This document shows positions 23,956 through 35,493 of a stretch of 64,000 bases of DNA, one piece after another. How positions within the stretch are numbered: position 1 is the stretch's first letter; each line of letters opens with the position of its first letter. The stretch spans positions 3,729,501 to 3,793,500 of the forward strand of contig CP082962.1 in the NCBI GenBank assembly GCA_021730285.1, given 5' to 3'. The position numbers and the translations under genes are program-made. Origin of the DNA: Desulfovibrio sp. JY. Its GTDB lineage: Bacteria; Desulfobacterota; Desulfovibrionia; Desulfovibrionales; Desulfovibrionaceae. The notes below the pieces were generated by a model. The model was given only the letters and a program-made list of their open reading frames with translations, did no database searches and was not told the origin of the DNA.

Positions 23956-25167
23956 TCAGGCCAAGGACAGCAGCAATTCGCACACCCGACGGCTGTCGGC
24001 CTTGCCCGGTTCGTCCTCCCGGGCCATGGCCACATCCACCACCTCGACGCCGAGCTTGCGGATGGCGGCGAGGTCCAGCGGATTTTCGTAACGGCCTTTT
24101 TTGCTATCCACCAGCACGAACCGCAACAGGTCCTCGCTCCGGCAGGACTTGGTGCAGCCGGCGCGAAGCGTTTCCAAAAGCCGCTCCACCTGCCCGGCCA
24201 CGGTCATGCCGCGCTGTTCCGGGTCGTGGCCGAGGTTGGGGATGTAGACCTTGGGGCAGTGGGTGGCGGCCACGGCATCCCCCACGCCCTGGGGGAGCAG
24301 GTTGGCGAGCAGGCTCGAATAGAAGCTGCCGTACGGGTAGCAGATCACGTCGGCCTGACGGATGAGGACTTCGGTTTTTTCCCGGATGCGCACCGTGGCC
24401 GGCGTGGGGTCATGCAGGTTCGCCACCAGCCATTGCCGCGCGATGGGCGCATCGATGGGCGCGGTTTCCTTGCCGGTCATGAGGTGCTGGCCCAGGAGCA
24501 CGCGGCCGTTTTCCAGCTGGCAGGCCAGATGCAGGTCGCAGTTGACGATGGGCCGCACCACGCCGCGCGCCTCGACCAGCTTCATGAACAGGTAGATGAC
24601 CGGGTCGAGCATGCGGTTGTAGTTGAAATAGCCGCCGGTCAGGATGCAGTTGCCGATGCTGGCGCCGCGCAGGTCGAAGGCATCGGTCCGTTTCTGCTCG
24701 AAAAAGCGCAGATGCGTGCGGATGATCTTGCGCATGGGATCGGGAATGTGGCGCACGAGCGGATCGTCGCCGGTGAGCATCTTGCCGAGCCGCGCCGCCA
24801 GCTCTTCCTGGGAGGCATCCTTGGGCAGGCGGTAGGCGAAAAGCTCGAACACGGCCGGGTTGCCGGTGATGGAACGGTCGGCCAGGGCCATGATGCGGTT
24901 TCGCAGGTCGCCCACGGCCGGCATGTGGAAGGCCTTGCGCAGCACGGCCGAGGAGCCGCCGGAGTCGAAGGGCGTGATCAGGTGGATGGAATTGGAGGTG
25001 TATTCGATGAGCGTTTCGCTTAAATGCCGCAGCGCCGTGCCGCCGCTGAAAAAGAGTATCTTGGGTCCCAGTTCCGGGGCGCGGCGGTAGAGCGCCGCCT
25101 TGGACAGGTCGGGCAGATTGACGGAACGGGAGATGTTCACGCGCGGAAAGGATTTCGAGTCAGCCAC
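23956..25167 (-). CDS. CofD/YvcK-like protein of the GAK type
   Basis: About 403 residues with the CofD/YvcK (2-phospho-L-lactate transferase) fold: ILFFSGGTALRHLSE near the N-terminus, ITPFDSGGSSAVLRKAF, and the C-terminal VYIPNLGHDPEQRGMTVAGQVE. It is shorter and different at the ends from F420-type CofD, and I recall it as the CofD-related member of the 'GAK' gene set. The ribosome site AGAGGA abuts the ATG at 25173 but is well spaced from GTG 25165-25167, so I start at the GTG. It follows an HprK-like kinase by under 70 bases. The substrate is unknown. Confidence 0.82.
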   Translation of the reverse strand: MADSKSFPRVNISRSVNLPDLSKAALYRRAPELGPKILFFSGGTALRHLSETLIEYTSNSIHLITPFDSGGSSAVLRKAFHMPAVGDLRNRIMALADRSITGNPAVFELFAYRLPKDASQEELAARLGKMLTGDDPLVRHIPDPMRKIIRTHLRFFEQKRTDAFDLRGASIGNCILTGGYFNYNRMLDPVIYLFMKLVEARGVVRPIVNCDLHLACQLENGRVLLGQHLMTGKETAPIDAPIARQWLVANLHDPTPATVRIREKTEVLIRQADVICYPYGSFYSSLLANLLPQGVGDAVAATHCPKVYIPNLGHDPEQRGMTVAGQVERLLETLRAGCTKSCRSEDLLRFVLVDSKKGRYENPLDLAAIRKLGVEVVDVAMAREDEPGKADSRRVCELLLSLA

Positions 25168-25231: not shown

Positions 25232-26338
25232 TCAGACACAACAGGGTGCGGCAGCCGGCCCGGAGGCCGGGACGGCGGGCGGCCCCAGCACGTCCAGGCA
25301 CAAGGCGGCGGCCCGCTTAAAATCCACACCGCCGCCGATGACCAGCACCGGGCAGGCTCCCAGCAGGACGCGATAGGCGTCTTGCGTGGCGGGACGCGGC
25401 CCCTCCTCGAAAAACACGCCCACATCCTTCATGAAGGCCGGCAGCAGCTCCGGGGAGGCGTCGACGTCCGTCCAACGCGCGCGCATGTCGCCGCCGCCGC
25501 GCCGCCAACCGAGGACCACCAGCGCCCGAAGCCCGGCCCGAAGCCGAAACCGGCCGGGGCCGAAACAGTCGCGGATGCGCACGTCGTATTTGTGCTCGAC
25601 GCGCCACAACGCGTCAGGGGAAAGCCCGGCGTAGGCCGCCCGCTCCGCTTCGGTCAAAACCGGGGCCAAGGCTTCGTTATGGAGCAGCGTCCCCGGATTG
25701 ATGCGGGGCATGCGGGCGATGCCGGTCATGGTCAGGCCGTCGGCGCCGGGGCCAATAAGCACCCGGTCGTTGGAGACGAACGAAGCGCCGTGACGCATGA
25801 TTTCCAGGGCCAGCGTGGATTTCCCGGCCCCGGCGAAACCGGACAGGGTAATCCCCGCCCCGCCCAGGCACACGCCGGCGGCGTGGAAGAGCAAGGCTCC
25901 GGCGCGCAGTTCCCGGTCCCCGCAACGGGCGTTGACGGCATTGACGACCTGGTCGACGTTTTGCCGGCAGGGGCCGAGCACGTAGTGTCCGCCCGGGCCG
26001 AACACCAGCCACAAGCCCGTGCGGCGCTTGCGCACCACGCGGCCGTCCGGCAGGTCGACGTATTCTTCCTTGGCCTCCTCGCCCTGCCCTTCCCGCGAGG
26101 CGAAAGGCAGGACGCTCGGCACCGGGCCGCCGTCCAGGGCCGTGACCACGATGTCGGGATTGCCGGCCTCGTCGAGAAAATCCTGGTAATGGGCGGTCAG
26201 GGCGTCCATGAGCTCGCCGGAATTCGAGCGCACCGCGACACGCGTGTCGGCAAGACGCAAACCGAGCGCGAGGGTCGGCATCATGTCCCGCTGATAGGCC
26301 GCGACAATGCCGCGGCAGGTGACTCCACTGGCCCCCAT
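25232..26338 (-). CDS. HprK-related kinase of the GAK type
   Basis: A 368-residue protein whose C-terminal half resembles the kinase fold of HPr kinase/phosphorylase: LLFHAAGVCLGGAGI, Walker A FAGAGKSTLALE, SFVSNDRVLI and the Arg-rich RMPRINPGT. The N-terminal half has no known domain. No HPr gene is nearby, so the phosphate acceptor is unknown; I recall this as 'HprK-related kinase B' of the GAK set. GGAG six bases upstream supports ATG 26338. It lies 28 bases after phoU and ahead of the CofD-like gene. Confidence 0.82.
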   Translation of the reverse strand: MGASGVTCRGIVAAYQRDMMPTLALGLRLADTRVAVRSNSGELMDALTAHYQDFLDEAGNPDIVVTALDGGPVPSVLPFASREGQGEEAKEEYVDLPDGRVVRKRRTGLWLVFGPGGHYVLGPCRQNVDQVVNAVNARCGDRELRAGALLFHAAGVCLGGAGITLSGFAGAGKSTLALEIMRHGASFVSNDRVLIGPGADGLTMTGIARMPRINPGTLLHNEALAPVLTEAERAAYAGLSPDALWRVEHKYDVRIRDCFGPGRFRLRAGLRALVVLGWRRGGGDMRARWTDVDASPELLPAFMKDVGVFFEEGPRPATQDAYRVLLGACPVLVIGGGVDFKRAAALCLDVLGPPAVPASGPAAAPCCV

Positions 26339-33481: not shown

Positions 33482-34285
33482 ATGGACGCACTGGAACCCG
33501 GCGCGTTGCGCATCGCCTGCTGCAACCATAAGGGCGGCGTGGGCAAGACGACCTGCGCCGTGAATCTGGCGGCCGGGCTTTGTCGCGCGGGTTGGCGCGT
33601 TGTTGTGGTGGACGCCGATCCCCAGGCCCACCTGACCGCATCCCTTGGGCTGGGCGATCCCGGGGACGGAGGGCTGGCCGCCGTGCTCGAGAGCGACGTC
33701 CCGGTCTCCCGGTGCCTGATCGAAGCCGAGGGCCTGCGCGTGCTGCCGGCCGCCGCCCGGCTGGCTACTGTAGAGTCCGAACTTTCCAGGCGCGAAGCGC
33801 CGGATAGCCTTCTGGCCGCGGCCATGGCGGACCTGTCCGACAGCGACGTCGTCCTTTTCGACTGCCCGCCCCACCTGGGGCCGCTCACCCGGCAGGTACT
33901 CGGCGCGGCCACGCGGGTGATCGTGCCCATGACGCCCGATTACCTGTCCATGCAAAGCCTGGCCTGGCTCATGGGCACCCTGTCCGAACTGGCGTCGGCC
34001 GAAACATCCGGCCCGTCGGTGCTCGGCATCGTGCTCAACCGATTTACGGCGCGCAAACGCCTGCACCGCGAGGTCAGGCGCGCCGTGGCCGGACATTTTC
34101 CGGATATACCCTTCGAGACGCCCATTCGTGAAAACGTGTCCCTGGCCGAAGCGCCAAGCCACGGCCAGGATATCTTCCGCTACGCGCCAACCAGCGCCGG
34201 CGCCCGGGATTTTGCCGCCGTCTGTCGGGAACTCGCCCGACGCACGGGCGAACCGGCCAGGACGGCGAAACGAGGTGCAAAATGA
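33482..34285 (+). CDS. ParA/Soj-family ATPase
   Basis: A 267-residue deviant-Walker ATPase: CNHKGGVGKTTCAVNLAAGL with the signature Lys, VVVDADPQAHLT, and VLFDCPPHLGPLTRQ. No parB or parS is close by. The downstream gene starts at the ATGA overlap with this stop and has a basic N-terminus, as ParA partner proteins do. This points to a dedicated cargo-positioning ATPase rather than the chromosomal ParA; that reading is inference. Confidence 0.9.
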   Translation: MDALEPGALRIACCNHKGGVGKTTCAVNLAAGLCRAGWRVVVVDADPQAHLTASLGLGDPGDGGLAAVLESDVPVSRCLIEAEGLRVLPAAARLATVESELSRREAPDSLLAAAMADLSDSDVVLFDCPPHLGPLTRQVLGAATRVIVPMTPDYLSMQSLAWLMGTLSELASAETSGPSVLGIVLNRFTARKRLHREVRRAVAGHFPDIPFETPIRENVSLAEAPSHGQDIFRYAPTSAGARDFAAVCRELARRTGEPARTAKRGAK

Positions 34286-35202
34286 CCGCCCGCTCAAGAC
34301 TCGGCCGCGACCCTTTAAGCGGCGTATCCCAACCCGAGACCAAAAAAACGGCCAAGAAAGCGACGAAAACCGCGACGAAAAAGGCCGCGCCTAAGAAATC
34401 CACCACGCCCAGGCCGACCAAGGCCGGGGCCGCAGTTCAACAGACCGTACCGGCAGCCGAGCCTATCCAGCCCATCCCGCAAAGCGCGCCGGTGGTCGAA
34501 CCCAAGGCCCAGACCGATGCGCTGATGCCGGAAACCGTTGCCAGCCCCGCACCGGCAGCCGAGCCCATCCAGCCTATCCCGCAGAGTACGCCGGTGGTCG
34601 AACCACTGGCCGCCGCCACGGCCGGGGATGTGCCGGAAGCGCCCACGCCGGAACCGCTCGTCGAGACGGTGCCGACACGCGAGGCGGTCCAGCCGATTCC
34701 CCAAAGTACGCCGGTCATCGAACCGGCTCCCAAAGCCGTTTCGCCCGAATCATTATGCCCTTCGGCTCCGGCCGAGGCGCCGCATCCACACCCGGCCGAA
34801 GTCTTTTTGCGCGGGGTGCTCGAAGGATTGGCCCCGGCCGGCGCTCTCTTGACCGATGTGGAAGCGGACCCGGACACCTCCGCCCTGCCGGTCGAAAAAC
34901 TTTTCTATTTCAGCCATGTTCTCCAACTGCTCGTCAATCCCCTGGAGCAGCCGGCTGCGGCCGGACGCAAACCGGGCGACAAGCGCGGCCCGGTCCCGGC
35001 CGTGTCCGTGCGGCTGCGCACCATCGGGCAAAACCGCCACAGCCTGCGCATCTACGACAACGGCCTGTTTTTCGGGCGCGCTCTTCCGGATCTTTCCCTG
35101 GAAATGGAAGCCTTGCGCCCGCTTCTGCTGTTCGTGATCAAACGCGACGGTTCGATTCTGCTCAAACGGGGCAAAAGCGTCGAATTCGAGATTATCGGCT
35201 AG
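34282..35202 (+). CDS. Putative ParA partner with basic tail and repeats
   Basis: An unrecognised 306-residue protein. Residues 1-15 include RSRLGRDPLSG, similar in style to the LGRG box with which ParB-type partners stimulate ParA. Residues 20-40 are Lys/Ala rich, like DNA-binding tails. Three copies of a 15-residue repeat around QPIPQS-A/T-PV-V/I-EP lie at 60-74, 94-108 and 134-148 in a Pro-rich linker. The C-terminal 120 residues form a compact domain (FSHVLQLLVNPLEQ, RIYDNGLFFG, LLLFVIKRDGSILLKRG). The stop of the ParA gene overlaps its ATG. Confidence 0.75.
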   Translation: MTARSRLGRDPLSGVSQPETKKTAKKATKTATKKAAPKKSTTPRPTKAGAAVQQTVPAAEPIQPIPQSAPVVEPKAQTDALMPETVASPAPAAEPIQPIPQSTPVVEPLAAATAGDVPEAPTPEPLVETVPTREAVQPIPQSTPVIEPAPKAVSPESLCPSAPAEAPHPHPAEVFLRGVLEGLAPAGALLTDVEADPDTSALPVEKLFYFSHVLQLLVNPLEQPAAAGRKPGDKRGPVPAVSVRLRTIGQNRHSLRIYDNGLFFGRALPDLSLEMEALRPLLLFVIKRDGSILLKRGKSVEFEIIG

Positions 35203-35226
35203 CAACGCAAGCCAAAGGAGCGCGTC

Positions 35227-35493
35227 ATGGAAAAAGAAAAAAACAAAATCAAGATCGAAGGGGTGATGCAGCTTTCCGAGGTCATCGCCAACCTGGAAAA
35301 GCTGGTCGCGGACATGCAGTGCGGCAAGGTCACCCTGGCCGCCGGGGATGAAAGCCTGACGCTTTCTCCCTCAGTGCTGGTCAATGTGGAGATGAAGGCT
35401 TCCCAGAAAAAGGACAAGGAGAAGTTCTCCCTGGAGATTTCCTGGAAGAAGCACAAGGAAATCGAGGGATTCGCGGACACCGTCGACGAATAG
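35227..35493 (+). CDS. Amphi-Trp domain protein
   Basis: An 88-residue protein matching the amphi-Trp domain I recall from NCBIfam/TIGRFAM: a helical N-terminus (MQLSEVIANLEKLVADMQCGKVTL), a beta strand with DESLTLSPS, and the end FSLEISWKKHK with the hallmark Trp. Its function is unknown; in several sulfate reducers it occurs with GAK genes. Here it is 24 bases after the ParA-partner gene and is probably in its operon. GGAG precedes the ATG. Confidence 0.8.
   Translation: MEKEKNKIKIEGVMQLSEVIANLEKLVADMQCGKVTLAAGDESLTLSPSVLVNVEMKASQKKDKEKFSLEISWKKHKEIEGFADTVDE

Follow-up and report, generated by a model that had tools for sequence, protein, structure and literature searches.

A conserved N-terminal tag is predicted to couple an extra ParA ATPase to an adaptor and an amphi-Trp protein in Solidesulfovibrio

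The window analyzed here is a stretch of 64,000 nucleotides from the genome of a sulfate-reducing Solidesulfovibrio, assembled as one contig of 4.69 Mb. Its central feature is a trio of consecutive genes encoding a ParA-type ATPase, a partner protein, and an amphi-Trp protein (Table 1). Reading of the open reading frames confirmed the arrangement described in the initial annotation: the ATGA at the end of the ParA gene contains the ATG of the partner gene (position 34282), i.e., the two genes overlap, and a gap of 24 bases (35203-35226) separates the partner gene from the amphi-Trp gene. The middle gene, previously listed as unrecognized, is indeed without a Pfam or NCBIfam match, and no description of a ParA/partner/amphi-Trp trio was found in the literature searched.

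Table 1. Positions of the trio, of the parts of the partner protein, and of the nearby GAK-system genes in the window
Feature	Position	Strand	Basis or remark
ParA/Soj-type Walker ATPase, 267 aa	33482..34285	+	Pfam AAA_31, Thermus Soj 1wcv, conserved ATPase motifs
Adaptor/partner protein, 306 aa	34282..35202	+	ORF, sequence, partner alignment
N-terminal tag MTARSRLGRDPLS, putative ParA-binding motif	34282..34320	+	35/35 ParA-linked loci; absent from 3/3 ParA-less partners
Lys/Ala-rich basic stretch	34340..34430	+	Net charge +10, residues 13-50; not conserved outside the genus
Pro-rich linker, three repeats QPIPQS[AT]PV	34445..34731	+	Sequence reading
Predicted catalytically degenerate histidine-kinase CA (GHKL) domain	34801..35202	+	AF2 model, Foldseek, VIA, profile
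Amphi-Trp domain protein, 88 aa, GAK-system family	35227..35493	+	TIGR04354, 5.2e-20
GAK-system CofD-like protein, possibly functionally linked	23965..25068	-	TIGR04357, 538 bits; genome 3753465-3754568
HprK-related kinase B, GAK system	25286..26311	-	TIGR04355, 397 bits; genome 3754786-3755811

The first protein of the trio belongs to the ParA/Soj group, with a deviant Walker A motif including the signature lysine, a Walker B motif, and similarity to Soj; it matches Pfam AAA_31 (1.6e-34), and its nearest solved structure is Soj of Thermus (1wcv, 3.8e-43). The trio ParAs keep KGGVGKTT, DADPQ, and DCPP as well as a basic stretch at the position of the DNA-binding arginine of Soj, a predicted DNA contact. 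A canonical ParA-ParB pair is encoded elsewhere in the genome, as is its sole ParB_N match, and the ParA of the window is therefore an extra one, separate from the chromosomal ParAB and in line with its earlier designation as an orphan. A quick tree, weakly supported internally, placed the trio ParAs apart from chromosomal ParAs. Other ParAs were encountered along the way. One further ParA of this genome (L115, 1528-2292, minus strand) adjoins genes that read as CheW-like and CheR and resembles the chemosensory ParAs PpfA and ParC. Related ParAs of family f59 (L184, 811-1494, minus strand; L187, 2264-2887, plus strand) are followed by a gene whose product starts approximately with LxxTxLSWI[KR]DTT and continues through a long linker into a hydrophobic segment at the C-terminus; it is possibly another tagged ParA adaptor, with a membrane cargo.

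For the partner, the initial annotation had proposed a layout in which a start with LGRDPL, a Lys/Ala tail, and a repeat-bearing spacer precede a folded domain, and the LGRDPL start (residues 7 to 12), the Lys/Ala stretch, and the three repeats are all present in the sequence. Alignment of the partners upholds the N-terminal motif and reduces the tail and the repeats to a variable linker that is not general: the aligned proteins differ almost throughout, the one common feature being a tag, RLGx[DN]P[LF], that follows within a few residues of the start. This tag occurs at all 35 loci that carry ParA beside an amphi-Trp gene, the window included, and its arginine is present in every case, which makes the middle protein a likely ParA partner, as had been suggested. 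At 22 loci, all of them outside the genus g5, a separate partner protein carries it. The g5 loci with ParA (13/13) are without a partner gene; here ParA is directly followed by a gene in which the tag and a linker are joined in frame to the amphi-Trp domain, and at those g5 loci that were read further upstream the ParA module adjoins a GAK CofD gene. That the amphi-Trp protein itself bears the tag in g5 agrees with its earlier placement on the cargo side. A search of the window genome found the tag at the true N-terminus of one protein only, and of no other.

Three ParA-less loci have kept the partner, and the tag is lost at each of them. In G080 it has decayed to RLGREPSSG, and the best ParA elsewhere in that genome is only 38% identical; on contig C95 of G097, the partner is kept with neither ParA nor tag; and in G071, flgE is followed directly by the partner (starting with MAHEQRPGTAHRSP), the amphi-Trp gene, and a response regulator gene, with no ParA. 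The surroundings in G037 are the same as in G071, but there ParA lies between flgE and the partner gene, and the tag is intact. Five ParA-less g5 loci encode, within the stretch read, only an untagged amphi-Trp protein. Co-occurrence of tag and ParA gave P = 1e-4 in a Fisher test that ignores shared ancestry and thus overstates independence, because the loci are phylogenetically related and include only three tag losses. Taken as a comparison of sequences, the evidence linking ParA and the tag is strong, and we infer that the tag binds ParA. Some genomes keep partner and amphi-Trp protein but lack ParA, which is thus not essential to the function of either.

A homologue of the partner was found in 14 Solidesulfovibrio genomes, that of the window among them, and in a single further genus. 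The three genes stay together: at 13 loci of the genus they occur in the order seen in the window and adjoin the same radical-SAM gene. When amphi-Trp genes were sought across the order and the phylum and their surroundings read, ParA was found beside amphi-Trp in the genera g41, g31, g10, g37, g43, and g5 of the same family and, outside the family, in one genome of the same phylum (G490, family f21). A phylum-wide search with ParA, in which 30 loci were read, found no RLGxDPL module besides that of G490; at these loci, high-scoring ParAs of other families were accompanied by a different partner, in many cases ParB, or by a protein with another start. In g10, the interval from CinA to amphi-Trp contained either both ParA and partner or neither (six loci read), and there are genomes in which amphi-Trp adjoins CinA while ParA and partner are both missing. 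The window genome likewise carries a second amphi-Trp gene, without ParA or partner, after a CinA-like gene (L107, 4881-5138, plus strand), and the trios of g10 and g41 sit in a CinA context like that of L107. Tight synteny inside Solidesulfovibrio would also be expected if the three genes were neighbors without a common function, kept together by chance in one clade; this is already unlikely, and it is the least probable of the explanations considered here, given that the arrangement recurs at different loci (CinA, flgE, GAK cluster, rSAM/rpoD) in several genera and another family and that ParA and tag co-vary. As far as sequences can tell, what exceeds chance is the tag at the N-terminus together with the order of the genes.

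Residues 1 to 50 of the partner have a net charge of +12, and the AEPIQPIPQS[AT]PVVEP-like repeats lie at positions 34445, 34547, and 34667, the later two sharing 86% and 69% identity with the first. Length and sequence of this linker vary within the genus, and in other genera it is shrunken or changed. Since neither the Lys/Ala stretch nor the repeats are conserved in other genera, both were considered and rejected as the ParA-binding part. A basic stretch of this kind, like the Lys-rich tails of the amphi-Trp proteins encoded upstream of ParA in g5, could also be taken to bind DNA, in which case ParA and a ParB-like tagged partner would segregate DNA from an unrecognized centromere. We regard this as very unlikely: the partner has no ParB domain, the genome already possesses its own ParAB, and the basic stretch is unconserved in other genera.

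The folded C-terminal domain of the initial annotation is present and can be specified further. AF2 modeling of partner residues 158 to 306, based like the other structure predictions on a shallow alignment of five rows, gave a model of moderate confidence (pLDDT 67, pTM 0.62). Foldseek related this model to histidine-kinase ATP-binding domains (best match 4r3a, 1.8e-6), and VIA matched it to the CA domain of DosS with a Z score of 12.6 over 117 residues. Independently, a sequence profile of the partner family had a single PDB match, again to EL346, the kinase of the Foldseek match, though a weak one (E = 0.16). In the alignment with EL346, the N-box residues Asn and Glu are replaced by P and L, DxGxG reads DNGLF, and a GxG loop (G2) is not seen; of the hallmarks of a histidine kinase, the predicted model thus shows the CA (GHKL) fold and not the N-box, DxGxG, and GxG motifs. 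The domain is accordingly predicted to be a GHKL fold devoid of catalytic residues. In g37 and g43, the partners contain a recognized PAS domain before the degenerate kinase domain, and NarL-type response regulator genes adjoin; on account of the CA-type fold, the PAS domains, and these regulators, a sensor kinase is the probable ancestor of the adaptor. The main rival to a spatial role is that ParA serves as an ATP switch, similar to FleN/FlhG, on a signaling protein of sensor-kinase origin; the tag would then couple the state of the ATPase to signaling output without any cargo being moved. The PAS plus degenerate kinase architecture and the adjoining NarL-type regulators of some genera, and flgE next to two loci, speak for this regulatory role; it is nonetheless unlikely, since neither a phospho-acceptor nor catalytic kinase residues are recognized, no response regulator lies near the trio of the window, and in g5 the tag is fused to amphi-Trp with the kinase domain absent.

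The third protein is clearly a member of the amphi-Trp family (TIGR04354 score 71.5 bits, cut-off 31), a component of the 'GAK system' of NCBIfam (TIGR04354-TIGR04357), whose letters we take to stand for grasp, amphi-Trp, and kinase. Its structure model was of low confidence (pLDDT 62) and gave no convincing PDB match, and no paper mentioning 'amphi-Trp' or 'GAK system' was found in the literature searched. The window contains GAK genes about 8 kb upstream of the trio, with no amphi-Trp gene found between those for the CofD-like protein and HprK-related kinase B. CofD_rel_GAK and HprK_rel_B are present in all 18 trio-bearing genomes tested; their proximity to the trio is not general, the distance being, for example, about 93 kb in G025. 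The GAK loci read in other genomes have genes for CofD-like, HprK-related, ATP-grasp, and amphi-Trp proteins in a row. Two variations on the amphi-Trp gene may be recorded here. The amphi-Trp proteins encoded upstream of ParA in g5 have a long Lys-rich, histone H1-like C-terminal tail (L111, 4595-5599, minus strand; L110, 4959-5450, plus strand). In L175 (3179-5306, minus strand), a third amphi-Trp gene of the window genome is followed by a gene for a PhoU/aminoglycoside-phosphotransferase-like fusion protein; the two genes are similarly arranged next to GAK clusters (L166).

The reading we favor, with a probability of roughly 60%, is a module of the ParA type that serves positioning (or segregation) and uses a portable tag; in it, the tagged adaptor couples ParA to an assembly of amphi-Trp protein and pseudo-kinase. 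ParA-ATP would coat the nucleoid and be contacted by the N-terminal RLGx[DN]P[LF] tag of the adaptor, whose arginine may stimulate ATP hydrolysis in analogy to the arginine region at the N-terminus of ParB. A disordered linker would connect the tag to the pseudo-histidine-kinase CA domain, which, together with the co-encoded amphi-Trp protein, would make or join a higher-order assembly, the cargo; contact between adaptor and amphi-Trp protein and formation of the assembly are both presumed. The ability of the tag to reside on the amphi-Trp protein itself makes an assembly that includes this protein the most likely cargo, and g5 would have dispensed with the adaptor by placing the tag on the amphi-Trp protein inside a GAK gene cluster. 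Spacing of such a cargo over the nucleoid, as proposed in the initial annotation, is suggested by analogy with other ParA systems. To our knowledge, few cargos are known for ParA systems outside plasmid or chromosome segregation. Whether the module also represents an undescribed class of ParA cargo, i.e., amphi-Trp/GAK assemblies positioned via a portable tag that decays when ParA is lost, is to us a proposal with slightly less than even chances. If true, the GAK system would gain its first cell-biological handle, and the widespread amphi-Trp/GAK proteins, unstudied in the literature searched, a first testable role; a tag that predicts a ParA partner from sequence, backed by parallel loss, would help to assign cargos to orphan ParAs.

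The trio shares with the GAK system its third protein and, in g5, the position of the ParA module beside a GAK CofD gene, whereas ParA and the tagged adaptor lie outside the GAK models and most GAK loci seen are without ParA. As in ParABS, the ATPase is closest to Soj among solved structures, and the tag occupies the place at which ParB of this genome has LGRGLEALL at its N-terminus, with LGR common to both; unlike in ParABS, no ParB domain is recognizable in the partner by Pfam or NCBIfam, and a separate ParAB exists. In the McdA-McdB system, carboxysomes are positioned by a ParA-family ATPase and a small partner unrelated to ParB (PMC6328274). The trio resembles it in combining a ParA-family ATPase with a non-ParB partner and in the proposed spacing of cargo over the nucleoid, but McdA is without the signature lysine (PMC9178275) that the ParA of the window possesses (KGGVGKTT), and the partner is not recognized as McdB. 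ParC-ParP of Vibrio localizes chemosensory arrays, the N-terminus of ParP binding the ATPase and its C-terminus integrating into the assembly (PMC5706961), and PpfA-TlpT of Rhodobacter likewise pairs a ParA-like ATPase outside par with an adaptor (PMC9178275). Common to these systems and the trio, as interpreted here, are a non-par ParA and an adaptor with an N-terminus for the ATPase and a C-terminus for an assembly of signaling parts. In contrast to both, the third gene of the trio encodes an amphi-Trp protein and the locus is without chemotaxis genes; in contrast to ParC-ParP, the adaptor ends in a predicted pseudo-kinase CA domain rather than a CheW-like AIF domain (no CheW match). ParP is the closest working model for the adaptor of the trio.
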